Source: Marinoscillum pacificum (GTDB lineage: Bacteria; Bacteroidota; Bacteroidia; Cytophagales; Cyclobacteriaceae). From it: DNA of 64,000 nt. The translations under genes were made by a program, and so were the position numbers. The notes below the pieces were generated by a model, which was not told where the DNA came from, did no database searches, and saw only the letters and a list, made by a program, of their open reading frames with translations. Shown in pieces: positions 6,600 through 31,663 of the stretch. Positions within the stretch are counted from its first letter, which is position 1; the number at the start of each line of letters is the position of its first letter. The stretch lies in NCBI RefSeq assembly GCF_024714495.1, contig NZ_JAMZMJ010000001.1, positions 62,001 through 126,000 on the forward strand, given 5' to 3'.

Positions 6600-7886
6600 T
6601 TATCTGTTGCCCATAGCAACGTAATCTCTCTCGTTTTCACCAATGTAAACCTGTCTTGGTCTTCCGATTGGCTCTTTATTCTCTCTCATTTCTTTCCACT
6701 GTGCAATCCAACCTGGTAGACGACCTAATGCGAACATTACGGTGAACATTTCAGCTGGAATACCCAATGCTCTGTAAATGATACCTGAGTAGAAGTCTAC
6801 GTTAGGGTAGAGGCTTCTTTCTACGAAGTACTGATCTTCTAGAGCTTCTTTCTCAAGCCCTTTCGCGATATCCAATACTGGATCGTTTACTCCTAATTTT
6901 TCTAGAACATCATCCGCAGCTTTCTTGATGATTTTAGCTCTTGGGTCGAAGTTCTTATACACTCTGTGACCAAAGCCCATCAAACGGAATGGATCGTTTT
7001 TGTCTTTTGCTTTCTGCATCCACTTGTGTGTATCACCACCATCAGCTTTGATCGCCTCAAGCATTTCGATAACAGCAGTGTTTGCTCCACCATGAAGTGG
7101 ACCCCACAATGCATTAATACCTGCAGAGATAGAAGCATACAAGCTAGCATGAGAACTTCCTACTATTCTTACTGTAGAAGCAGAACAGTTTTGTTCGTGA
7201 TCTGCATGAAGAATTAATAACTTATCCAAAGCTGCCGCAACAACTGGATCAATTTCATATTGCTCAGTTGGTAGACCGAACATCATTTTCAAGAAATTGC
7301 TACAGTAATCAAGGCTATTGTCAGGATAAGTCACAGGGTGACCCATTTGATTTTTGTAAGACCATGCTGCGAATGTTGGCATTTTAGCCAGAATTCTGAT
7401 AATGCTCAAATTAACATCATCAGCAGGTCTGTTTGGATCCAAACTCTGTGGATAGAATGCTGTCAATGAAGTAACTAGAGAAGATAACACGCCCATTGGG
7501 TGAGCAGTTGAAGGGAATCCGTCTAGAAGCTTCTTGATGTCCTCATGCACCAACGTGTGGTTCGTGATGTCAGACTTAAATTTCTCAAATGTCGCAGTGT
7601 CCGGCAATTCACCATAGATCAATAGATACGCAACTTCTAAGAAGGTTGACTTTTCGGCCAATTGTTCGATTGGGTACCCTCTGTATCTTAGGATACCTTG
7701 CTCTCCATCAAGGAAAGTAATCGCACTTTTAGTAGAACCTGTGTTTTTGAATCCTGGGTCTATGGTGATGACTCCTGACTCAGCTCTTAGTTTGCTTATA
7801 TCAATCGCTTTTTCTTGCTCTGAACCTTCAATCAGAGGCAGCTCGTAGCTCTTACCATCTACTTTAATCTCTGCTGTATTCGACAT
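6600..7886 (-). CDS. gltA: Citrate synthase
   Basis: 428 residues, the normal length of hexameric bacterial citrate synthases. It condenses oxaloacetate with acetyl-CoA in the first step of the TCA cycle, in the cytoplasm. Visible motifs are the substrate-binding GPLHGGANTAVIEML and the highly conserved MGFGHRVYKNFDPRA, with catalytic His in both and the Asp region near the C-terminal third (PNVDFYSG). The gene is followed by a strong hairpin terminator and preceded by a prohibitin gene on the same strand with a 96-bp gap, so it probably has its own promoter. Identification is secure. Confidence 0.97.
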   Translation of the reverse strand: MSNTAEIKVDGKSYELPLIEGSEQEKAIDISKLRAESGVITIDPGFKNTGSTKSAITFLDGEQGILRYRGYPIEQLAEKSTFLEVAYLLIYGELPDTATFEKFKSDITNHTLVHEDIKKLLDGFPSTAHPMGVLSSLVTSLTAFYPQSLDPNRPADDVNLSIIRILAKMPTFAAWSYKNQMGHPVTYPDNSLDYCSNFLKMMFGLPTEQYEIDPVVAAALDKLLILHADHEQNCSASTVRIVGSSHASLYASISAGINALWGPLHGGANTAVIEMLEAIKADGGDTHKWMQKAKDKNDPFRLMGFGHRVYKNFDPRAKIIKKAADDVLEKLGVNDPVLDIAKGLEKEALEDQYFVERSLYPNVDFYSGIIYRALGIPAEMFTVMFALGRLPGWIAQWKEMRENKEPIGRPRQVYIGENERDYVAMGNR

Positions 7887-7982
7887 CTGTTATTATACTT
7901 TTTATATTATGCTAGAATTGGGTTGTAAATTAACTATTTATGCTGATTTAACTATCGATTTTTAAAAGTGTTAGGGCTGACT

Positions 7983-8807
7983 TTAATTTCCACCTAAAAT
8001 TAATGGTAAACCGTCCTTTCCACTGCCTACTACAACGATTTTACTGTTTGGAGAGTTCGCCAATTCTTTAGTCGCTTCGATACCTCTCATTTTAAGTAAG
8101 TTATCTGTTAAACTGCTATTGATAATTTTGTTGGCTACAGCCTCACCATCCGCTGCGATTCTTTTTCTTTCTGCTTCGCTTTCCTCTTTGTCTAATCTAA
8201 ACTGATAAGCCAAAGCTTCTTGCTCTTGCTTTAATTTATTTTCGATAGCTAACCTAATTTGCTCTGGAAGCTTAATTGAACGGATCAATAACGCTCTCAT
8301 TTCAACATTGTTTCCTGGTGCTCCCAGTATCTGATCTGTTTCTAACTTGATAGCTCCTTCTACTTCAGGTCTTTTCGTTGAGTAGATTTCCTCTGCAGTA
8401 TACCTTCCCATTACTTGTCTTACAGTAGATCGTACTTCAGGTCTTACCAATCTATCTTGATAATCCATTCTGAATGTTTCGTAGATTTCACCTATGCTAT
8501 CATAAATAGGGTGGAAACGAACTGTTATATCTACATTAATATTTAGGCCGTTTTTGTCCAACACGTCCATTGTTTCCTCAATTTGGTTCTCTGTAACATC
8601 ATATATGTAAGCGTCACTCCATGGTGCTTTCACATGAAAACCAGGTCCTATCACGTTTTGCTTATCCAGTTCACCAGAAAGTGTGTTGAAAATGACAGCT
8701 CTTTCACCGGATTTCACCTTATAGATTAAGGAATTCCCAAGTGAAAGAATGACAATCAAAATGACCGCCGTAACAATGATAAGAGGTAAGTATTTTCGGT
8801 TATCCAT
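7983..8807 (-). CDS. Prohibitin-family SPFH/band 7 membrane protein
   Basis: 274 residues. One N-terminal membrane helix (residues about 8-28) is followed by the SPFH domain (KVKSGERAVIFN..., GPGFHVKAPWSD) and a charged helical region with alternating Glu/Arg (residues about 195-235) that would form the coiled coil of ring-shaped assemblies. Prohibitin-type SPFH proteins form large inner-membrane scaffolds, often linked with FtsH protease control. It is upstream of gltA and divergent from ppc. The family is clear; the cellular task here is not. Confidence 0.9.
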   Translation of the reverse strand: MDNRKYLPLIIVTAVILIVILSLGNSLIYKVKSGERAVIFNTLSGELDKQNVIGPGFHVKAPWSDAYIYDVTENQIEETMDVLDKNGLNINVDITVRFHPIYDSIGEIYETFRMDYQDRLVRPEVRSTVRQVMGRYTAEEIYSTKRPEVEGAIKLETDQILGAPGNNVEMRALLIRSIKLPEQIRLAIENKLKQEQEALAYQFRLDKEESEAERKRIAADGEAVANKIINSSLTDNLLKMRGIEATKELANSPNSKIVVVGSGKDGLPLILGGN

Positions 8808-8963
8808 AGTAGAATTATTGCATTTTAGCTGGTAAAGTTAATAATCAACAGGTGAAATAAATTATTATTCTATATTGATGATGCTATTTATTGATATTCC
8901 AAATAATTTTAGCTTTTATTGCAATATAACCAAATAAATGACCGGTTTATAAAGTAAATTTTG

Positions 8964-11729
8964 ATGAAATCTACGCTAAAATTATTACAAGAAACATTAG
9001 GTAAACCCTATGAGGATCTGGAGTTTCTGTTGGAAGCTTTAAAGGATATTCTCATTGAGAATGGTGAAGAAGAGATGGCCAATCAGATTCCGTGGATCAA
9101 GTTTATACCGGAATTGGAATCACAGCCGCTCACACAAAAACATATTCAGTTGTATTCATTGGTTTTCCAACTGGTAAATATGGTGGAAATCAATGGAGCG
9201 GTACAACACAGAAGATCTCAGGAAGACAAGGATCTGGCGTCTGTCAATGGCCTTTGGGCGAACAATTTCAAGAAACTTAAAGATCTTGGAATTGGTGAAA
9301 AGGATATTGCTGTAAGACTTAAGGATATTCGTATTGAACCCGTATTGACAGCTCACCCTACTGAGGCGAAACGAGCAACTGTATTGGAGCATCACAGAGA
9401 GTTGTATCTATTAATGGTACAGCGTGAAAACTCTATGTATACAGAAAAGGAAAAAGAAAACATTCGACATAATATTAAGCAAACGCTTTATCGTTTGTGG
9501 AAGACAGGAGAGATTTTCCTGGAGAAGCCTGATGTGCCGTCAGAGCTCCGAAACATTATGCATTATTTAATTAATGTGTTTCCACAGGTAATACCCGTTT
9601 TGGACAGACGAATGTTACAAGCCTGGGAAGATCAAGGCTTTGATTCACAGACTTTGTACGACTTGGATGCCTGGCCTAAGCTCTCTTTTGGAGATTGGGT
9701 AGGAGGTGACCGAGATGGTCATCCGTTGGTGACGGATCAAGTGACAGCCGAGACACTGACTGCACTTAGATTAAATGCCATAGTAGTTGTTCGCAGAACA
9801 CTAGTTGATTTAGTGAAGCATTTGAGTTTCACCGCAAGTTCTTCAACCGTAGATCCTGAGTTAAAAGATCGTCTTCATGAGTTAAAAACACAGCTGGGAG
9901 CACGTGGAGAGGAAGCCTATACAAGAAATAGAGGTGAAGCATTTCGTCAATTTATCAATCTCGTACTGACAAAACTGCCTGTTGATACGCGTAGAGGTCA
10001 CGCTACAGAGATTATGGAGTACCCGGGAAGTTATGTGAACTCTAAGGAGTTACTGGCAGACCTAAAGCTGCTACAGAAAGCTATGCTTAATTATGGAGCT
10101 AAGTCAATTGCAAGAGATGATATTCATACGGCTATCAGAGCAATTGAGACTTTCGGTTTTTACCTGGCGAAGGTGGATGTACGCCAGAATAGTGATTTTC
10201 ATGACAAGGCCATGCAGCAGTTACTAGAAGCTGCTGGTTTTGAGAAAACGGATTATCCAAACTGGAGTGAAGAGGAGCGTTTAGCTTTCTTAAATGAAGA
10301 ACTGAAATCAAATAGACCATTCACCCATCAAAACACGAAACTTGGACCAAATGCTGAGGCTGTTGTCAGTTGTTTCAAAGTTTTGGAAGCTCACATATCA
10401 AAGTATGATACAGCAGGAATTGGTTCTTTGATTGTGTCAATGACACGTTCGGTTTCTGATTTATTACTCGTTTATTTACTGGCAAGAGAGGCAGGTCTAA
10501 CTATTCAGACTAAGGAAGGATTGGTTTGTGTACTTCCTGTCGTGCCATTGTTAGAGACGATTGATGATTTGGCTAATGGTCCAGATATTTTGAAAGGTTT
10601 CTTGTCACATCCTTACACTGCTAGAAGTATTAAGTACATCCAGGAGAAGGAAGAAACGCCGATGCCAGTACAGCAAGTAATGGTGGGTTACTCTGATAGT
10701 AATAAAGATGGAGGTATCATGGCCAGCCAGTGGAATCTCTTCAAAGCTCAAAGTAGACTATATGAAACTGGAAAACAGTTTGAAGTGAAAATTCGCTTCT
10801 TCCATGGTAAAGGTGGCTCAATCAGTAGAGGTGCAGGACCAACGCATTACTTTATCAATTCATTGCCACACTCAAGTATCGCTGGAGACCTGCGTTTGAC
10901 AGAGCAGGGCGAGACGATTGCACAGAAGTATGCCAATAAAGTTAATGCTGAGTACAACATTGAATTATTAGTAGCGAGTACCGCTGCCAAGTCAATCAGT
11001 AGCCACTTTACAGAAAGAAAACCACATCCATTGGCTGATGTACTTCAAAAATTAGCGGACGATAGTAAGACTTACTATGAAAAGCTAATGCACGAAGAAG
11101 GGTTCATTCCTTTCTTCCGTCAGGCAACACCAATTGATGCTATAGAAACGAGTAAAATCGGTTCAAGACCAGCAAAAAGAACGGGAGCAAACTCATTGCA
11201 GGATTTGAGAGCGATTCCGTGGGTGTTCTCTTGGAGTCAATCCAGGTTCAATATGACAAGCTGGTATGGACTTGGGTCTGCTATCAATGACTTGAAGACT
11301 AATACTCCAGAGCTTTATGCTGAATTCAAGAAAGCATTGAAGCATGATGCATTCATTCGTTATGTATTGACCAATGTGGATACTAGTTTAGCTGCGACTG
11401 ATGAAGAGATCATCAAAATGTACGCTTCATTGGTGAAGGAAGAAGATATTAAGGATAAGTTCTTGAACATGTTCTTAAATGAGCTTTCACTGACTCGTCA
11501 AATGTTGATGGAATTGTTGGAGAGAGGTATAGAAGAGAGACGTAAAAATCACTTCTATTCTAACCAGTTAAGGGCATCATTAATGGCCACTCTTCATAAG
11601 CAACAAGTTGAATTACTTGACAAATGGAGAACTGAAAAGGCGAAGAATGATCCTGAAGCTGAAAAGACTCAGGTACAATTAATGCTAACAATTAATGGTA
11701 TTGCCTCAGCAATGAGGAATACCGGCTGA
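8964..11729 (+). CDS. ppc: Phosphoenolpyruvate carboxylase
   Basis: About 921 residues. The start is taken at ATG 8964, one codon after an in-frame TTG at 8961. The enzyme adds bicarbonate to PEP to make oxaloacetate, an anaplerotic supply for the citrate synthase encoded nearby. Motifs: catalytic His region VLTAHPTEAKR (near residue 131), GGDRDGHP, GYSDSNKDGG, and the glycine-rich active loop FHGKGGSISRGAGP; the C-terminus ends RNTG as in the family. Divergent from the prohibitin gene and followed by a bidirectional terminator. Identification is secure. Confidence 0.97.
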   Translation: MKSTLKLLQETLGKPYEDLEFLLEALKDILIENGEEEMANQIPWIKFIPELESQPLTQKHIQLYSLVFQLVNMVEINGAVQHRRSQEDKDLASVNGLWANNFKKLKDLGIGEKDIAVRLKDIRIEPVLTAHPTEAKRATVLEHHRELYLLMVQRENSMYTEKEKENIRHNIKQTLYRLWKTGEIFLEKPDVPSELRNIMHYLINVFPQVIPVLDRRMLQAWEDQGFDSQTLYDLDAWPKLSFGDWVGGDRDGHPLVTDQVTAETLTALRLNAIVVVRRTLVDLVKHLSFTASSSTVDPELKDRLHELKTQLGARGEEAYTRNRGEAFRQFINLVLTKLPVDTRRGHATEIMEYPGSYVNSKELLADLKLLQKAMLNYGAKSIARDDIHTAIRAIETFGFYLAKVDVRQNSDFHDKAMQQLLEAAGFEKTDYPNWSEEERLAFLNEELKSNRPFTHQNTKLGPNAEAVVSCFKVLEAHISKYDTAGIGSLIVSMTRSVSDLLLVYLLAREAGLTIQTKEGLVCVLPVVPLLETIDDLANGPDILKGFLSHPYTARSIKYIQEKEETPMPVQQVMVGYSDSNKDGGIMASQWNLFKAQSRLYETGKQFEVKIRFFHGKGGSISRGAGPTHYFINSLPHSSIAGDLRLTEQGETIAQKYANKVNAEYNIELLVASTAAKSISSHFTERKPHPLADVLQKLADDSKTYYEKLMHEEGFIPFFRQATPIDAIETSKIGSRPAKRTGANSLQDLRAIPWVFSWSQSRFNMTSWYGLGSAINDLKTNTPELYAEFKKALKHDAFIRYVLTNVDTSLAATDEEIIKMYASLVKEEDIKDKFLNMFLNELSLTRQMLMELLERGIEERRKNHFYSNQLRASLMATLHKQQVELLDKWRTEKAKNDPEAEKTQVQLMLTINGIASAMRNTG

Positions 11730-22702: not shown

Positions 22703-24001
22703 TTAAACCACTGAAATCAGGTAGTAGTTCTTTTTACCCTTCTGAGCCAGCAAGTACTTGCCTTGAAGAAGTTCTACTTCAACTGCATCATTCGGATCAC
22801 CAACTTTAATTTTATTGATGCTAACACCTCCACCTTTGATCATTTTGCGAGCTTCACCTTTTGAAGGGAAAATAGTTCCTCCTGTTAGTTCACTCAACAA
22901 ATCTGTCACGTTAGCTACTTCCGCTAATTGTGTTTTAGTGATTTCTGATTGTGGTACACCTTCAAAAACCTGAAGTAAAGTACGCTCATCCAATTCAGCT
23001 AAATCTTCAGTTGTAGACTTTCCAAATAGAATTTCAGAAGCCTTTTGAGCTTTGATTAATTCTTCTTTGGAGTGAACCATAGTTGTGATTTCTTCAGCCA
23101 ATCTACTTTGAAGAGCTCTCTGGTGAGGAGCTTCACGGTGTTGAGCGATCAACTCTTCTATTTCTTCCTTGCCAAGGAAAGTGAATATTTTGATGTACTT
23201 CTCAGCGTCAACATCTGAAGTATTTAACCAGTATTGGTAGAATTGGTAAGGAGACGTTCTTTCGGCATCTAGCCAGATGTTTCCACCTTCTGTCTTACCA
23301 AACTTGGTTCCATCGGCTTTGGTGATCAACGGACATGTCAATGCATACGCTTTTCCTCCGCCAATTCTTCTGATCAATTCTGTGCCGGTGGTGATGTTTC
23401 CCCACTGATCGCTTCCACCCATTTGAAGCGTACATTTAGCTTCTTTGTATAGGTGTAAAAAGTCATACCCCTGAACCAATTGGTAGGTGAACTCGGTAAA
23501 GCTCATGCCATCAGAAGATTCACCTGATAGCCTCTTCTTTACAGAATCTTTGGCCATCATATAGTTCACAGTGATGTGTTTTCCTACGTCTCTAATGAAT
23601 CCAAGGAATGAAAATTCTTTCATCCAGTCATAGTTATTGACAAGTTTGGCTGCATTAGGTGTGTCAGAATCAAAATCTAAGAAGCGTGAAAGTTGATCTT
23701 TGATCGCATTTTGGTTGTGACGTAATGTAGCTTCGTCTAGAAGATTTCTCTCAGCTGACTTACCTGAAGGATCACCAATCATTCCAGTAGCACCTCCGAT
23801 TAAAGCATAAGGCTTGTGGCCACACACTTGAAAATGCTTCAACATCATAACACTTACCAGGTGACCGATATGTAAGGAATCTGCAGTAGGGTCTATTCCT
23901 ACATAAGCAGCTCTCATTTCTTCCATCAAGTGTGCATCAGTCTCTGGCATGATGTCTTGAATCATACCCCTCCATGTCAGTTCAGCAACGAAATCTTTCA
24001 T
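22703..24001 (-). CDS. tyrS: Tyrosyl-tRNA synthetase
   Basis: 432 residues, the normal size of bacterial TyrRS. It charges tRNA-Tyr in the cytoplasm. Class I signatures are visible: HIGH (residues 44-47, in DSLHIGHLV) and the KMSKS equivalent KFGKT in [13 protein letters not shown]. The Tyr-binding [12 protein letters not shown] and GGSDQWGN are conserved. The C-terminal about 70 residues form the S4-like RNA-binding domain ([19 protein letters not shown]). It has a promoter-like TATTTTTG element 34 bp upstream of the start. Confidence 0.98.
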
Positions 24002-24034
24002 TGGTTCAAAGAATTAGTTTTTATCTTACCGCCG

Positions 24035-24042
24035 CAAAAATA
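24035..24042 (-). promoter_or_regulatory. Putative -7 promoter element of tyrS
   Basis: The minus strand reads TATTTTTG, an exact TAnnTTTG match, followed by CGGCGG. It is 34 bp upstream of the tyrS ATG. A clear -33 TTTG is not seen. Confidence 0.4.
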
Positions 24043-24088
24043 GACGGCCTTTTCAATAATGCCAGAATTCTAAAAAGTTTAGCTGAGT

Positions 24089-25507
24089 TTGCTTCGAATT
24101 TTAATCCACATATTTCTCTCTATTCTCTTACTGAATCCATTAATGGCTCAGTTTATTGATCGTCCTGCGAATTTGACTCCAAGATATAGTGGCGATGATA
24201 CTGAGCTTGTTGATCAGATTTTTCACAATGCCGAGCGAGAAATTGCAAAACTAGATCAGCAAACCTTATTTTATAAGTCTTTCATTTTAGACACACGAGA
24301 TTATATTCTAGATAATGTAGAGAATGGCTTTTATCTTAAACATGATTCTTTAAGCCTATTGGTTAATGAGCTAGCTGCTGGAATTCTTGATGCCAATCAA
24401 CTTCATCTTGATGATCCAATATTCTTTATCAAATCTTCAGCTTTCGTAAATGCCGGATCATTGATGATCAATGTGTTTGAAATTGATGTTGCTCTTTTTG
24501 CAACCTTAGACTCAAAAGATGAACTGGCTTTTGTTCTGGCACATGAATTGGCGCATCAGTTGAAATATCACGTTGCTGAGCGCATTGTGCTTAATATGGA
24601 ATATGATCCAGAAGGAAAGTTACGATCAGAAATGCAGCGTGTTGTTAAGGGTGTTACATCCAATGAGCGGCTTTCTGAAGCTCAAGAAGCTATGTATGAA
24701 TACCGAAATAGTATGCGAAGAATGGAATTGCAAGCAGATTCATTAGCCACTATTTACATGAGAAAGGCAGGTTATGATCCAGCTGAAGGCATGCAAGTGT
24801 TAAACAAACTTGGATATAGTGCATGTACATCTGAAGTGGCTATGGAAAGACTGTTTCTTCGCCTATTTACATCACGTTTCAAACCAAAGCCTCAGTGGTT
24901 TGTAAAGAGTTTACCCATGCAGAGTAAGCAACAAAGTCAATTCCTGATTTACAAGACGGATTCATTGGAGAGTCATCCCCATCTAGAAGCACGGGTAAAG
25001 GCTTTGGAATTGATCGTTCAGGATAGTGTTTCTACAAATGAGTTGAAGGTGAACGATGTTTGGCGTGAAGTTATCTGGTCTGGCTACGAGCAAAGACAGT
25101 TTGATTTGACCCTGTTTTATTTGTTAATTTATATTGATCAAACGGGACATGATTCATTCTCAGGAACCATGGTTGGTCTATTGCTCAATGATTTGTACTG
25201 GGCACGGTATGATGACAATCCTGAAAACAATATCTATCAATATGTGAGTTACAGGACTCCGGGATACACAGAAGAGCTGAGGTTTGTTAACAATGTCCTT
25301 CATCATATGACCAAAGAAGATTATTTGATGACAGGATTTATGCTATTGAGTAATAGGGAAGTGTTTGATCGAACCAACGAAGAGCATTATTACTTACTGT
25401 ATCATTTCGCATCTTTGCTTCAAGAAAACGCTATCGCCGATCAATTGAAGATAATGTATTTCAAACAGTTTGAACAAACCAAATACAAAACCCGAGATTT
25501 CAAGTAG
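24089..25507 (+). CDS. Exported M48-family zinc metalloprotease
   Basis: 472 residues from a TTG start at 24089. This start is preferred because it gives a complete signal peptide (hydrophobic residues 3-17, ending LMAQ); the next ATG would remove it. The zinc site is HELAH (residues 152-156), in a context (AFVLAHELAHQLKYH) typical of M48 proteases. The third ligand Glu would be in the conserved ELQADSLA motif near residue 212. The C-terminal 230 residues are helical. It may degrade or control envelope proteins. It converges with the dehydrogenase gene of the Anbu operon, overlapping by 8 bp. Confidence 0.88.
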   Translation: MLRILIHIFLSILLLNPLMAQFIDRPANLTPRYSGDDTELVDQIFHNAEREIAKLDQQTLFYKSFILDTRDYILDNVENGFYLKHDSLSLLVNELAAGILDANQLHLDDPIFFIKSSAFVNAGSLMINVFEIDVALFATLDSKDELAFVLAHELAHQLKYHVAERIVLNMEYDPEGKLRSEMQRVVKGVTSNERLSEAQEAMYEYRNSMRRMELQADSLATIYMRKAGYDPAEGMQVLNKLGYSACTSEVAMERLFLRLFTSRFKPKPQWFVKSLPMQSKQQSQFLIYKTDSLESHPHLEARVKALELIVQDSVSTNELKVNDVWREVIWSGYEQRQFDLTLFYLLIYIDQTGHDSFSGTMVGLLLNDLYWARYDDNPENNIYQYVSYRTPGYTEELRFVNNVLHHMTKEDYLMTGFMLLSNREVFDRTNEEHYYLLYHFASLLQENAIADQLKIMYFKQFEQTKYKTRDFK

Positions 25508-26417
25508 GAAAGAAGTTTATCTCCATCAATTTTTCAGTAAGATTCCACAAACGACGCGCTTTCTGTTCATTTCTTGAGTTTCGATCTGATCCCACTTTTA
25601 CGGCTGGTCCTTTGTATTGACGAAATCCTCCAGGGCCAAAGTACTCACCACTTTTGGCCTTAGGATCAAGAGCAGCTCTTAAGATTGGCCATGCACCTTC
25701 ATTAGGCTTTTGAAAAACAAAAGGAGAGACTATATGACCTAATCTCACTAAAAGCGGATGAAGGTTTCTTCCAATTTCTGTGATGGTCACTCCTGGATGA
25801 GCCGCTAATGATGATACTTGATAATTCTTCGCTTTCAATTGTCGTGACAGTTCATAAGCAAACATCAGACAAGCTAATTTGCTTTGACCGTAGACTTTTC
25901 GAGCATTGTAATTCTTAGCTGAATTGATGTCTTCAAAATCAATGTCACCCCAGGCATGAGCTAGACTACTTAACGCGACAATTCTTGATTCTGGAGTAGA
26001 TTCTAATGTAGGTAGTAGGAGACTTGTCAATAGAAAATGTCCAAAGTAATTGGCCGCCATCTGGCTTTCTAACCCGTCTTCTGTTTGCTGATAGGGTGGC
26101 ATCATGACGCCAGCATTGTTAATTAATAAGTCAAGTGACTTATATTTTGAATTATAAGCTGATGCAAATGATCGTATGGACTGATTACTACACAGATCTA
26201 ACGCCAGCGCATCTAATTTTGCGGCAGGATATGACTTCTTGATTCTTTCAATCGCCTTATTGGCTTTGTCCAGATTTCGACAAGCTAGAACTACGGTTAA
26301 ATCTTTAGATGCTAATGCCTTCGCTGTTTCGTAACCAAGTCCAACGTTAGCGCCAGTTACAACTGCAGTACGGTCAGATTGAGATTCTAGAGATTGAAAG
26401 GAGTAAGTCATAGTCAC
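25500..26417 (-). CDS. Short-chain dehydrogenase/reductase, last gene of the Anbu operon
   Basis: 305 residues. Classical SDR motifs are present: TGANVGLGYE for NAD(P) binding (residues about 21-30), NNAG, and YGQSK as the catalytic YxxxK. The N-terminal region resembles retinol dehydrogenase/WW-domain oxidoreductase-type SDRs. It begins 15 bp after the transglutaminase-like gene on the same strand, so it may be transcribed with the Anbu operon. An SDR is not a usual member of that gene set, so a functional tie is inferred from spacing only. Substrate unknown. Confidence 0.9.
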   Translation of the reverse strand: MTMTYSFQSLESQSDRTAVVTGANVGLGYETAKALASKDLTVVLACRNLDKANKAIERIKKSYPAAKLDALALDLCSNQSIRSFASAYNSKYKSLDLLINNAGVMMPPYQQTEDGLESQMAANYFGHFLLTSLLLPTLESTPESRIVALSSLAHAWGDIDFEDINSAKNYNARKVYGQSKLACLMFAYELSRQLKAKNYQVSSLAAHPGVTITEIGRNLHPLLVRLGHIVSPFVFQKPNEGAWPILRAALDPKAKSGEYFGPGGFRQYKGPAVKVGSDRNSRNEQKARRLWNLTEKLMEINFFPT

Positions 26418-26432
26418 ATGACTAAGATACTT

Positions 26433-27248
26433 CTATAATTGTTCTAAAGTGACTTCAAATTTCAATTCAGATGAAGCATCACCAAAGTAGCTTCCCTGGA
26501 TAGGGAAGGTGTTGCGTGGGAGATAGCTGGCAGCTACAGGTATATAGCGATCTGTCGCTAACAAACCAGAATTTGGATCTACTCCAATCCATCCGGCACC
26601 TGGCAACAAAACCTCGACCCAGGCATGTAATTCATGACCTTCACCGAGATTAGGATTGTATCCATACCCACTTACGAACCTTGCTGGAATATTGATGCTG
26701 CGAAGCATCTGAATCATCATCCAACTCAGATCTCTACACGACCCTTTTTTACTCGAAAAACATTCATCAGGAGGCATGATGGTTGGCTCATAGCGAATTG
26801 TATGTTCCCAATTTTCATGAATTTCACTAGCCAAAAAGGTCAATAAGGTCACCATGTTGTTGCCGGCAGGTGAAACCACATCATTCAACCAATCACTCAA
26901 ATTGGAAGATAGTGATTGTTGTTGCAGGTAAGGAGTTTGAATGGGTGTTGGATCACCAACAGGTTCCTCTACAATAAAATCAAAAGGATTGATTGGCTGA
27001 GTTTCCACTATAAACTCAGCTACGACAGTTAGTTCCTTGATTGGATCATTGAACCAGCACTGATGAAAAGCATTGCTTTCAATATCCGTTCGAAAGGATA
27101 GTCCTGAAGCATGAGGATTTACTTGAATATCGAAGGATTCAAGGTTTAGATAATTTCTATGGGAAGGACAAAAGTAAAGATGGTGAGGCTGCAGAACAAC
27201 CTCTTTGCTGTATATGTATTGTGTAAGGTGTTTTACTTTTATTCTCAC
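26433..27248 (-). CDS. Transglutaminase-like protein of the Anbu operon
   Basis: 271 residues. N-terminal beta domain (residues 1-90, Bact_transglu_N type: HLTQYIYSKEVVLQPHHLYF) and C-terminal transglutaminase-like core with Cys171 (KKGSCRDLSW), His208 (HELHAWVEV) and Asp224 (VDPNSG). The triad is complete. Such proteins can act as peptidases, amidases or amide-forming enzymes. The gene overlaps the Anbu gene by 4 bp (ATGA), so the two are translationally coupled. In other bacteria this family is found with Anbu, alpha-E and ATP-grasp genes. Confidence 0.9.
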   Translation of the reverse strand: MRIKVKHLTQYIYSKEVVLQPHHLYFCPSHRNYLNLESFDIQVNPHASGLSFRTDIESNAFHQCWFNDPIKELTVVAEFIVETQPINPFDFIVEEPVGDPTPIQTPYLQQQSLSSNLSDWLNDVVSPAGNNMVTLLTFLASEIHENWEHTIRYEPTIMPPDECFSSKKGSCRDLSWMMIQMLRSINIPARFVSGYGYNPNLGEGHELHAWVEVLLPGAGWIGVDPNSGLLATDRYIPVAASYLPRNTFPIQGSYFGDASSELKFEVTLEQL

Positions 27249-27988
27249 TCAATTAGTGTCATTTGTTCATTAGGAGCAAAAGCTCTGGACAATGCTACAG
27301 CTGGTAACTTTTCAATCCCTGCTTTTAATCTTGAATTCCAAAACTCTGAAATATGGCCGAGCTCTTTTTCTTCGAAACGATGTTCGATCAGGTTGTATTC
27401 ATTCTTTCTTAAAACAACCGTATCAATAGGATAATCCACGTCATTGGCAGAAATCCTTGTTGCATCAAAAGAAAGGAATCCACTTTTGAGTCCAAACTCC
27501 AAAGTCGAATCATAAGTTAATGATCTTTTTAGAATTGGATTCCCAAAGCCTGTATTTCCGATGATTACGTAAGGTGTTCCAGGTCCAATCTCTATCCAGT
27601 TACCTTGTGGATAGAGTAGATACATTTTAGGCTCTTTGTCTTCTTCTAATTGACCACCTACAATGGAGAATAAGTTGAAGTAAAGACCAGCTTCTTCAAG
27701 ACTTCTTTTGTCTTCCAATGCCACTCTTTTTACCTGTTCACCAAATTGGTTAACGGCTTTGTAAAGTTTAGTGAATTTCTCGTCTTGCGCTTCGATTACC
27801 TCTCCAAAATACGTAATGGCCTTATCTCTCACAGATCTAAGGCCAGAAGTCATGATGAAAAATGAGTGTTTCTCGCGTTGAACAGTGTAAATTTTCTTTG
27901 CTGTGGTAGTGTCGTTACCAGAAGTAATACGAGTATCAGCAAGTCCAGCGACGCCCTCTTTACTCAAAATTCCTAAACAATATGTCAT
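27245..27988 (-). CDS. Anbu, proteasome-like Ntn peptidase
   Basis: 247 residues. After removal of the initiator Met the protein begins TYCLGI with Thr1 as presumptive nucleophile, Asp17 (LADTR) and a Lys (position 31 of the mature form) in the places of the proteasome/HslV catalytic triad. Length and N-terminus match Anbu (COG3484), the ancestral beta-subunit family that forms helical or lock-washer assemblies and lacks a known unfoldase. It is flanked by the alpha-E gene (3-bp gap) and the transglutaminase gene (4-bp overlap). The partner set strongly supports the call. Natural substrates are not known. Confidence 0.9.
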   Translation of the reverse strand: MTYCLGILSKEGVAGLADTRITSGNDTTTAKKIYTVQREKHSFFIMTSGLRSVRDKAITYFGEVIEAQDEKFTKLYKAVNQFGEQVKRVALEDKRSLEEAGLYFNLFSIVGGQLEEDKEPKMYLLYPQGNWIEIGPGTPYVIIGNTGFGNPILKRSLTYDSTLEFGLKSGFLSFDATRISANDVDYPIDTVVLRKNEYNLIEHRFEEKELGHISEFWNSRLKAGIEKLPAVALSRAFAPNEQMTLIE

Positions 27989-27991
27989 CTA

Positions 27992-28963
27992 TTATTGATC
28001 CTGTGCCTGAGTAGCGAAATTAGGTTGAATCTTGAAATATTGTTCATATACAGCCGTCGAAATATCATTTATTCTTCGCTGCAGTTGGTCGAGATATTCA
28101 TGCAAACCGTATTTGAATACGTCGTTGATATCAGCATATTCCAGCTCCGACCTCAAAGTACCGATGGCCTTCTCCGCCGGATTGGAATATCCTCTTTTGG
28201 CATCAGAAATTTCGTGTAAACACTTCTCAGCTTCTGTCAAGCAATAAAAGATGGATCTGGGGAAGTATACGTTCAGAACCAGATACTCCACAATGTTGGA
28301 TGGTTCTATTTTCCCATACAATTTTTTATAGGCGTTGAATCCACTAACTGATTTTAGCAAAGCACTCCAGTGAAGGAAATCCAATGGTGATCCGACTTCT
28401 TCAACTGATGGGAGCAATACATGGTATTTGACGTCTAATATTCTGGACGTTTTGTCAGCACGCTCCAGAAACTGGCCCAGTTTATTAAAGTACCATCCTT
28501 GAGTTCTTGGAGAAGTATCATATCCAATTCCTTGCAATAGCTGAAGCTTATACTTAATCTGTTTGAACTGATCAGGGTCCAGAGACTTCCATGCAGAACG
28601 CTTTACCGCATTGTTCATAAAGTGATAGAGATCATTTAATACCTCCCAAATTTCTTTAGATACGCTTTCACGGATCTGTCTGGCATTTTCACGAGCCTTT
28701 GTTACCGATACCAATATGGAGTTGTCATTTTCCTTATCAAAAGCCAAAAACTTAATGGCATTTTCTCTGGAATACCCATCATAAAGTTCCAGGAAGCGTT
28801 TTTCATCTCCTGTTGCAGCAATCAATGGTTGCCATTGCTCTGCCATGCCTGGAGGTAAGTCCATTGAAAGATTGAAATTCACATCGATGAATCTGGAATA
28901 ATTTTCGGCTCTTTCAGTATATCTACCGAGCCAAAACAATGAATCTGCTACTCTACTTAACAT
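27992..28963 (-). CDS. Alpha-E domain protein
   Basis: 323 residues, almost wholly helical. The N-terminus MLSRVADSLFWLGRYTERAENYSRFIDV is the hallmark of the alpha-E family (COG2307; key residues Ser-Leu-Phe-Trp-x-x-Arg-Tyr-x-Glu-Arg-Ala-Glu-Asn). Its biochemical role is unknown; it is nearly always linked to circularly permuted ATP-grasp and transglutaminase-like genes, and has been proposed to help an amide-ligase system. Here it lies 17 bp after the ATP-grasp gene and 3 bp before Anbu. Confidence 0.92.
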   Translation of the reverse strand: MLSRVADSLFWLGRYTERAENYSRFIDVNFNLSMDLPPGMAEQWQPLIAATGDEKRFLELYDGYSRENAIKFLAFDKENDNSILVSVTKARENARQIRESVSKEIWEVLNDLYHFMNNAVKRSAWKSLDPDQFKQIKYKLQLLQGIGYDTSPRTQGWYFNKLGQFLERADKTSRILDVKYHVLLPSVEEVGSPLDFLHWSALLKSVSGFNAYKKLYGKIEPSNIVEYLVLNVYFPRSIFYCLTEAEKCLHEISDAKRGYSNPAEKAIGTLRSELEYADINDVFKYGLHEYLDQLQRRINDISTAVYEQYFKIQPNFATQAQDQ

Positions 28964-28980
28964 CCTCTCTACGTCATTAA

Positions 28981-30405
28981 TTAATCAAACAAAACCCATG
29001 TGTCTTTACTTCCTCCACCTTGAGAGGAATTAACAACTAGTGACCCTTCCACCAGAGCTACTCTGGTTAGTGCTCCTGGCAAAACCTTGATTTCTTTTCC
29101 ATACAGTATGTATGGTCTTAAATCTACATGTCTTGGTGCTATTCCTGCTTCTGTAATGGTAGGAACTGTTGAAAGAGAAAGGGTTGGTTGTGCTATGTAT
29201 TTTCTAGGTTCAGCAGCTACGAGTTTTCTAAATTTCGCATGCTCTTCTTTGGATGCTTTTGGTCCTATCATCATCCCGTAACCTCCAGCTGCGTTTGTTT
29301 CCTTTACTACGAGTTCTTCGATGTTCTCCAGCACATACTCCAAATCTTCTTTTTCAGAGCATAAGTAAGTAGGTACATTTTCAAGAATTGGTTCTTCACC
29401 TAAATAAAATTTGATGATTCTAGGAACATAAGCGTAGATGGCTTTATCATCTGCTACTCCTGTGCCAGGTGCATTGGCTAAGGCAACGTTTCCAGCTTTG
29501 TAAGCCTCAAATATTCCAGGTACTCCTAGCATAGACTTAGGATTGAAAGTGTTTGGATCCAGGAATGTGTCATCGATTCGTCTGTAGATTACATCCACTT
29601 GCTTGAGACCTTTAGTAGTCTGCATATAGACACGATTATCTTGTGTAATCAAGTCTTGACCGGTTACCAGCTCTACACCCATTTGCTGCGCGAGGTATGA
29701 ATGCTCAAAATAGGCCGAATTATAAATTCCAGGAGTTAAGACCACAACAGTCGGATTTGGCTTATCTGATAAGTTCTGCAACATAGCTAGTAGCATGTTT
29801 GAATAATCAGATACTGGTCTTACACCTATATTAGAGAAAAGTTGTGGAAACGCCTGTTTGATGATTTCTCTGTTCTCTAATAAATAAGATACACCAGATG
29901 GACATCTAAGATTGTCCTCAAGTACATAAAACTTACCTGATTTGTCTCGAACGATATCACTTCCCGTAATATGGCACCAGATTCCTTTTGGAGGATTAAG
30001 TCCGACGCATGGCTTCAAGAAGTCTTGACTGGTCAAGACAAGTTCTTCAGGTATTATTCCTTCTTTTAAAATTCTTTGTTCATGGTATAAGTCTCCGATG
30101 AACATGTTTAATGCTGTGATTCGTTGGATCAGGCCTTTCTCAATTATCTCCCATTCCTTTCCTGAAATGATTCTGGGAATAAGATCTAAATGAAGAATCT
30201 TCTCTATTCCTTGATTGTCATGATAGACATTAAAGGTCATCCCCATAGACATCTGCGCTTTATCTGCAGAGTCCTGTAGTTGAAACAGTTTCTTCTTAGA
30301 GAATTTCTGTAAGTGATCTTTAAATTCCGAATATGGGCCTCGGCAATCCTGTTGTTCGAACATCTCATCGAAATGCTCGGACGGTTTATATTGATCAAAA
30401 AGCAC
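28981..30405 (-). CDS. Circularly permuted type 2 ATP-grasp protein, first gene of the Anbu operon
   Basis: 474 residues from a GTG start at 30405; no upstream in-frame ATG exists before a stop. The sequence matches COG2308: GLIQRITALNMFIGDLYHEQRILKEGIIP, EDNLRCPSGVSYLLENR, VVVLTPGIYNSAYFEHSYLAQQMG, TNAAGGYGMMIGP and the C-terminal ILYGKEIKVLPGALTRVAL...SSQGGGSKDTWVL. ATP-grasp enzymes form acyl-phosphates and ligate amines, so this one may make a peptide or amide bond. It starts an operon with alpha-E, Anbu, transglutaminase and SDR genes. The molecule made is unknown. Confidence 0.92.
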   Translation of the reverse strand: MLFDQYKPSEHFDEMFEQQDCRGPYSEFKDHLQKFSKKKLFQLQDSADKAQMSMGMTFNVYHDNQGIEKILHLDLIPRIISGKEWEIIEKGLIQRITALNMFIGDLYHEQRILKEGIIPEELVLTSQDFLKPCVGLNPPKGIWCHITGSDIVRDKSGKFYVLEDNLRCPSGVSYLLENREIIKQAFPQLFSNIGVRPVSDYSNMLLAMLQNLSDKPNPTVVVLTPGIYNSAYFEHSYLAQQMGVELVTGQDLITQDNRVYMQTTKGLKQVDVIYRRIDDTFLDPNTFNPKSMLGVPGIFEAYKAGNVALANAPGTGVADDKAIYAYVPRIIKFYLGEEPILENVPTYLCSEKEDLEYVLENIEELVVKETNAAGGYGMMIGPKASKEEHAKFRKLVAAEPRKYIAQPTLSLSTVPTITEAGIAPRHVDLRPYILYGKEIKVLPGALTRVALVEGSLVVNSSQGGGSKDTWVLFD

Positions 30406-30643
30406 GATTGAACAGTTGATGTTTTTATTAAATCCATCAATAAATTATTGATTTCTTATTGAAATCGAAATATGATTATGAAAAAATCAATTATTACAGG
30501 ATAAAATAATCTCTAATTCAATTTGTGTGATGGTAAGCAGAGGTGAATTAATGAATTTTCAGAGAGCAGTGGAATGGTTGAACAATTTTGAAAAACTCAT
30601 AGCAACTACTTTCTCATCTGGTAAGACAGTTTAACTTTACCGC

Positions 30644-31663
30644 ATGGCTGAATATGTAGAGATTGTAAAAGATCTTCAGAACGGTAAATATGCACCGGTT
30701 TATTTCCTACAAGGGGATGAGCCGTTTTTTATTGACAATATTCTATCACACATCGAGAAAAATGCATTGGATGAAACTCAGAAGAGTTTTAACCAATATG
30801 TGCTTTATGGTAAGGATGTGAGTTTTACCGATATACTCAATGTAGCTCGTAAATACCCCATGATGGGTGAGCGACAGGTAGTATTAATTAAAGAAGCACA
30901 AGACATCAAGGATTGGAAAAAGGAAGACGCCCAGACAATGCTTTGTGCTTATCTGGAAAATCCTTTACCGTCTACCATACTGGTTTTTGGCCATAAGTAT
31001 AAGAGTCTGGATAAGCGGACTAAGGTGGCTAAGGTGCTGACCAAAAATGCTGTATTTCTTGATTCTAAAAAGATCTATGATGACAAAGTGCCAGGTTGGG
31101 TGAGTTCCTATGCGAAAGCTTCAGGAGCAAACATCTCTGACAAGGCTATTATGATCCTAACCGAGAACATTGGGAATAATCTACAGCGTTTGGCCAATGA
31201 GTTGGATAAGCTAAAACTGAATGTTCCTGACGGTCAGCAAATCGATGATAAGGCGGTTGAAAAATATGTAGGGATTAGCAAAGACTACAATGCTTTCGAG
31301 TTGCAAAAAGCGATCTCTCTCCGAGATGAAGTGAAAGCTGTTAAGATTATCAATTACTTTGCGGCAAATCCTTCGAGTAATCCTCTGATTTTGATCATTG
31401 CCAATTTGTATGCTTATTTTTCCAAACTTTTGGTGCTGCATCATCAGAATGCTTATGAGAAAGGAGCTGCTGCCAGAGCGATAGGGGTCAATCCATTTTT
31501 TGCTGGTGAATACATTATGGCTGCTAAAAACTATCCAATTCATGTGGTAGTTCGTAACATAGAGATGATTCATCACGCAGATTTACAGTCCAAAGGAATT
31601 GGCTATGGCCCGATGAAAGAAGGAGATATTTTGCGTGAGCTGATATTTAAACTGATGCACTAA
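30644..31663 (+). CDS. holA: DNA polymerase III, delta subunit
   Basis: 339 residues, the usual length. Delta opens the beta sliding clamp as part of the clamp loader in the cytoplasm. Conserved pattern: YFLQGDEPFFIDNI near the N-terminus, an AAA+-like fold, LTENIGNNLQRLANELDKL, and the C-terminal collar (FFAGEYIMAAKNY...HHADLQSKGIG). The start at 30644 follows a TAACTTTA sequence that resembles a -7 element very close to the ATG. A short gap separates it from the TPR gene. Identification is good. Confidence 0.92.
   Translation: MAEYVEIVKDLQNGKYAPVYFLQGDEPFFIDNILSHIEKNALDETQKSFNQYVLYGKDVSFTDILNVARKYPMMGERQVVLIKEAQDIKDWKKEDAQTMLCAYLENPLPSTILVFGHKYKSLDKRTKVAKVLTKNAVFLDSKKIYDDKVPGWVSSYAKASGANISDKAIMILTENIGNNLQRLANELDKLKLNVPDGQQIDDKAVEKYVGISKDYNAFELQKAISLRDEVKAVKIINYFAANPSSNPLILIIANLYAYFSKLLVLHHQNAYEKGAAARAIGVNPFFAGEYIMAAKNYPIHVVVRNIEMIHHADLQSKGIGYGPMKEGDILRELIFKLMH

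Follow-up and report, generated by a model that had tools for sequence, protein, structure and literature searches.

A short-chain dehydrogenase gene directly behind the Anbu operon of Marinoscillum pacificum is probably a lineage-specific passenger

The window analysed here is a 64,000-nucleotide stretch of the Marinoscillum pacificum genome (assembly GCF_024714495.1, contig NZ_JAMZMJ010000001.1, positions 62,001 to 126,000). It carries an Anbu operon, in which genes for an ATP-grasp ligase, an alpha-E domain protein, the proteasome-like Anbu (ancestral beta subunit) and a transglutaminase-like protein are followed directly by a gene for a short-chain dehydrogenase (SDR). Judged from the sequence, the first four genes are a complete Anbu operon of a known kind, of the Bacteroidota type, that looks intact. 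The SDR is most probably a lineage-specific passenger with a reductase function of its own, likely an ordinary gene that ended up next to the operon, because it was found in this position only in a single small cluster of sister species. A first-pass annotation had proposed the SDR as a fifth component that could add a redox step to the system. Surveyed across relatives, the SDR is absent from the set outside three Marinoscillum species that form a single clade, and the proposal is not upheld. A conserved Anbu-SDR association was ruled out by the named and wider surveys and by the reciprocal survey from the SDR side.

A total of 140 Anbu loci were collected, 20 from relatives, 80 from the named search (the best 80 of at least 565 confirmed candidates) and 40 from family and phylum searches; the larger-group searches sampled 390, 395 and 390 genomes, and many of the relatives are drafts or metagenome-assembled genomes (MAGs). 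Counts refer to 120 distinct Anbu sequences, 15 duplicates and five loci without a full Anbu open reading frame (ORF) having been left out (L031 and L032, the two halves of the set in genome G004; L127, from the same genome as G004; L200 and L295). The order ATP-grasp, alpha-E, Anbu, transglutaminase is present at 91 of these 120 loci, in agreement with the first-pass view of the first four genes as a known conserved set. At the 91 canonical loci, the gene after the transglutaminase gene is on the opposite strand in 42 cases, encodes a metallophosphoesterase in 33 and an inositol-phosphate synthase in two, and in 11 is some other gene on the same strand, always at a distance above 60 bp; two loci end there at a contig edge. 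An SDR of the window type is next at one canonical locus, in genome G003. Across all 140 loci, it follows the set in two genomes only, both of the same genus, with the set in one of them split over two contigs. Different, unrelated genes occupy the slot behind the transglutaminase gene in different lineages.

Because the SDR reference sequences detect only 22 of the 30 SDR proteins of the window genome (loci were available for 30 of the 48 Pfam matches), the 140 loci were rescanned with these 30 proteins as queries. No further window-type SDR was found among the 1981 ORFs of these loci. Apart from L029 and L032, nine loci encode SDR-like proteins, which come down to six distinct cases after identical sequences are merged; the window SDR is the best match of none of them, and all lie beyond operon distance from the set. 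The nearest, L204:9792-10628 from a Balneolaceae MAG (same sequence in L280), lies 187 bp after the transglutaminase gene in the same direction, and its best Pfam match is adh_short_C2, Enoyl-(ACP) reductase.

The reciprocal survey accepted SDR homologues at E 1e-65 or better, with at most six candidates scored per genome, and its counts are therefore lower bounds. Homologues are present in at least 49 of the 390 sampled genomes of the family and stand beside Anbu in three. Anbu is present in 121 of the 390, and 21 genomes have both genes. Besides the three linked genomes these are 18, of which 15 have the SDR and Anbu on separate contigs and the other three (G062, G071 and G208) have them on a single contig at a distance of over 100 kb. 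For six of the 18 (G009, G011, G036, G068, G128 and G410), inspection of the genes adjoining the set showed none to be this SDR. The SDR and Anbu do not co-occur significantly across the 390 genomes (Fisher p 0.07; with the three linked genomes removed, 0.23). The SDR tree places the operon-side proteins in one clade (support 100/99), with those of G036 and G128, two genomes in which Anbu and the SDR are on separate contigs, next to it at weak support (83/50) and together with it inside a supported six-row group (98/92); the root of the tree is unsure because the outgroup rows have very long branches. In the genomes searched, related SDRs stand alone, away from Anbu sets, and recurrence of the SDR beside the set in independent lineages was not found in either the 140 loci or the 390 family genomes.

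Within the genus, six genomes could be compared, with presence called at E 0.001 for Anbu and E 1e-60 for the SDR. Both genes are present in the window genome (G000), G003 and G004, and neither in G001, G002 and G005. In G003 all five genes are complete and the gap between the transglutaminase and SDR genes is 15 bp, as in the window. The set in G004 is split across two contigs within Anbu, and the second contig carries the transglutaminase gene, a 21-bp gap and the SDR gene. G005 has the ATP-grasp, alpha-E and transglutaminase genes beside holA (L111, G005:C1:738000-754000, 6685-9937), with 22 bp from alpha-E to transglutaminase and the transglutaminase Cys, His and Asp kept; at the thresholds above, neither an Anbu nor an SDR of the window kind was detected there, and the next gene is a weak putAbiC match. 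This is likely a natural loss of Anbu. The ATP-grasp protein of the window is 92, 87 and 84% identical to its counterparts in G003, G004 and G005, respectively. On the available contigs, the genes flanking the operon on either side are collinear in the three species that have the SDR, with some genes missing, and the adjacency of the SDR is therefore kept no better than that of its neighbours. In the other genomes holA and tyrS are not neighbours: some 80 kb separates them in G005 and about ten other ORFs in G002, and in G001 they sit on two separate contigs. The operon and SDR thus lie at a join particular to this clade.

Under the passenger interpretation, a PRK06197-type reductase, ordinary for the bacterial family, would have ended up directly behind the operon in the ancestor of the Marinoscillum clade. 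That position is at the clade-specific join of the holA side and the tyrS side, and the SDR would probably be transcribed by read-through while doing a separate job of its own. Several observations weigh against this. The SDR and Anbu go together in the genus, three genomes having both and three neither. Their odds ratio across the 390 genomes, uncorrected for relatedness, is 1.8 at the p of 0.07 given above, and different contigs in a draft are no proof of distance. If the SDR starts at an ATG at 26411, rather than at the GTG at 26417, its spacing from the transglutaminase gene is 21 bp in all three species, a constancy kept while synonymous sites are near or at saturation and one that suits a single message. 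The SDR is also under purifying selection (pN 0.114 versus pS 0.74 between G000 and G003). The shared direction and constant spacing, this selection and the genus pattern, in which G005 has the other three genes of the set and neither Anbu nor the SDR, would all be in keeping with recruitment of the SDR in the clade as a working fifth enzyme that catalyses the reduction or oxidation of an aldehyde or ketone carried by the substrate or by the product of the ATP-grasp and transglutaminase system. We consider such recruitment quite improbable, as it would concern a single clade with no further case in 140 loci, relatives of the SDR are unlinked to Anbu, co-occurrence lacks significance and the whole neighbourhood is equally collinear. 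The joint pattern in the genus can be explained by one event.

Whether the SDR gene belongs to the same transcript is a separate matter, and a promoter or terminator between it and the transglutaminase gene, either of which would speak against a common message, was looked for. A scan of 24000-31000 detected no terminator-like site between the two genes; it returned two sites in all, versus a shuffle mean of 4.5, one of them (29055-29037, minus strand) within the ATP-grasp gene, towards its 3′ end. The SDR could instead be transcribed separately, from a promoter within the 3′ end of the transglutaminase gene, which would be compatible with a passenger. Just before its start there is a Bacteroidota-type promoter match with one mismatch (26486-26456), and two weak sigma-70-like matches (9/12) lie either side of the start, at 26465-26438 and 26411-26384. 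The Bacteroidota-type match, however, has a second mismatch in each of the sister species, judged by eye, and both kinds of match occur at a chance rate, with 17 sigma-70-like matches in the region versus 21.0 expected and Bacteroidota-type matches at 0.47 per kb per strand in the window, the sole exact one being at 520. A separate promoter is therefore unlikely. Co-transcription of the SDR with the operon appears likely because the 21-bp spacing is common to three species and the SDR is under purifying selection. That part of the first-pass annotation, a shared transcript, is judged probable from these sequence features, whereas membership of the SDR in the system is not borne out. No paper in the library searched combines Anbu, proteasome and short-chain dehydrogenase, and the term dehydrogenase is absent from three Anbu papers, PMC5666114 and PMC6376114 among them.

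As a protein, the SDR is assigned to the PRK06197 subfamily by its score of 348.6 bits against NCBIfam NF004846 (curated cut-off 268), a cut-off also passed by both sister-species copies and by two stand-alone relatives. With this subfamily it shares, in addition to the score, the SDR motifs TGANVGLG (cofactor), NNAG, SS and YGQSK (catalytic); relatives in the same bacterial family, unlike the window SDR, are not beside Anbu sets. An Arg following the second strand suggests, we presume, NADP(H) as the cofactor. The closest solved structure is 3rd5 (a protein named by its code only), and protochlorophyllide oxidoreductases come next. On the other side of the SDR, an M48-family peptidase gene (24089-25507, plus strand) is convergent with it and overlaps its stop by 8 bp; its homologue occupies two ORFs in G003, and in G004 there is none between the SDR gene and tyrS.

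The coordinates of the set are given in Table 1. The ORF coordinates match exactly the layout originally described, with all five genes on the minus strand and spacings, in order of transcription, of 17, 3, -4 and 15 bp (ORF list), the negative value being a 4-bp overlap of the Anbu and transglutaminase genes. The products were identified through Pfam together with searches against solved structures. The window Anbu is barely above the Pfam Proteasome cut-off of 22.4, and its identity is secured by phmmer matches to the solved Anbu structures 5loy, 5nyj, 5nyf, 5lox and 5nyw (E 1e-29 to 4e-21). The predicted catalytic residues named in the first pass are likewise in place, with Anbu Thr1, Asp17 and two adjacent Lys invariant in an alignment of 15 proteins, including that of the window (T2, D18, K31 and K32 when numbered from Met), and transglutaminase Cys171, His208 and Asp224 invariant among ten, again including the window protein. 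The window genome also encodes a second proteasome-family protein (195 aa), probably HslV, and a second set in which a large transglutaminase-like protein is accompanied by an 848-aa ATP-grasp homologue.

Table 1. Positions of the Anbu operon genes and the adjoining SDR gene in the window
Feature	Position	Strand	Remarks
Circularly permuted type 2 ATP-grasp ligase, gene 1 of set	28981..30405	-	474 aa; Pfam CP_ATPgrasp_2 567 bits
Alpha-E domain protein	27992..28963	-	323 aa; Pfam Alpha-E 330 bits
Anbu (ancestral beta subunit), proteasome-like Ntn-hydrolase	27245..27988	-	247 aa; Pfam Proteasome 22.6 bits
Transglutaminase-like protein	26433..27248	-	271 aa; Pfam Bact_transglu_N + Transglut_core
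SDR, PRK06197 subfamily, likely passenger	25500..26417	-	305 aa; Pfam adh_short 106 bits; NCBIfam NF004846
Gap transglutaminase/SDR, 15 bp	26418..26432	-	no terminator-like site; nearby promoter-like matches at chance rate

The Anbu operons of Yersinia bercovieri and Paracoccus consist of the same four gene families, packed and in one direction. As far as the available part of PMC6376114 describes it, the Anbu active site (Thr1, Asp17, Lys32/33) has the same residues as the window Anbu, which, assigned by phylum, would be the Anbu-2 of PMC5666114. Plasmid gene order was compared for three of 25 matching records (Paracoccus, Limimaricola and Azospirillum). The Anbu gene follows the transglutaminase gene on the Paracoccus and Limimaricola plasmids, whereas it precedes it in the window, and in the Azospirillum record Anbu is present without the other three genes listed nearby. 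Among the loci surveyed here, an alternative order, ATP-grasp, alpha-E, transglutaminase, Anbu, was seen in eight (L264, L265, L267, L268, L286, L287, L288 and L292), five of which have a second transglutaminase-like gene after Anbu. In L041, L045, L283 and L293, Anbu is followed by a transglutaminase-like gene with no ATP-grasp or alpha-E gene among the three preceding genes; the L041 and L045 transglutaminases have a Bact_transglu_N_2 N-terminal domain. A NIF3-family gene lies 12 bp after the set in L256, the ATP-grasp end of which is off the contig. A metallophosphoesterase gene (~418 aa product), in the same direction, is located 38-447 bp after the transglutaminase gene in L034, L036-L039 and many of L134-L198. 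It was considered as a true fifth gene but is recorded here simply as an observation, because most of the gaps (25 of 33) are longer than 60 bp and the loci are from related genera.

According to the proposals in the available portions of PMC5666114 and PMC6376114, the ATP-grasp protein of the operon synthesises an amide, and this product is acted on by the transglutaminase-like protein and Anbu. Of these activities, only the release of phosphate from ATP was demonstrated there, for the homologous ATP-grasp protein of Y. bercovieri; none of the substrates tried revealed an amidase activity of Anbu, and a stable complex between operon proteins was not detected. Following the published proposals, the ATP-grasp enzyme of the window would activate a carboxylate as an acyl phosphate and make an amide, with help from the alpha-E protein; the transglutaminase-like cysteine enzyme may then transfer or cleave the amide, and Anbu, as an Ntn-hydrolase, may trim or remove the product. 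Anbu looks like an optional module or step of the system because, among 59 relatives (G000 included), an ATP-grasp gene is present in all 18 genomes with Anbu, and Anbu was not found in 12 of the 30 genomes with the ATP-grasp gene.

A real extra enzyme of the Anbu operon, if there were one, would be a hint at the substrate of the system. The survey leaves little ground for taking the SDR as such a clue. The three-gene set of G005, in which no Anbu was found, is a more useful natural experiment than the SDR.

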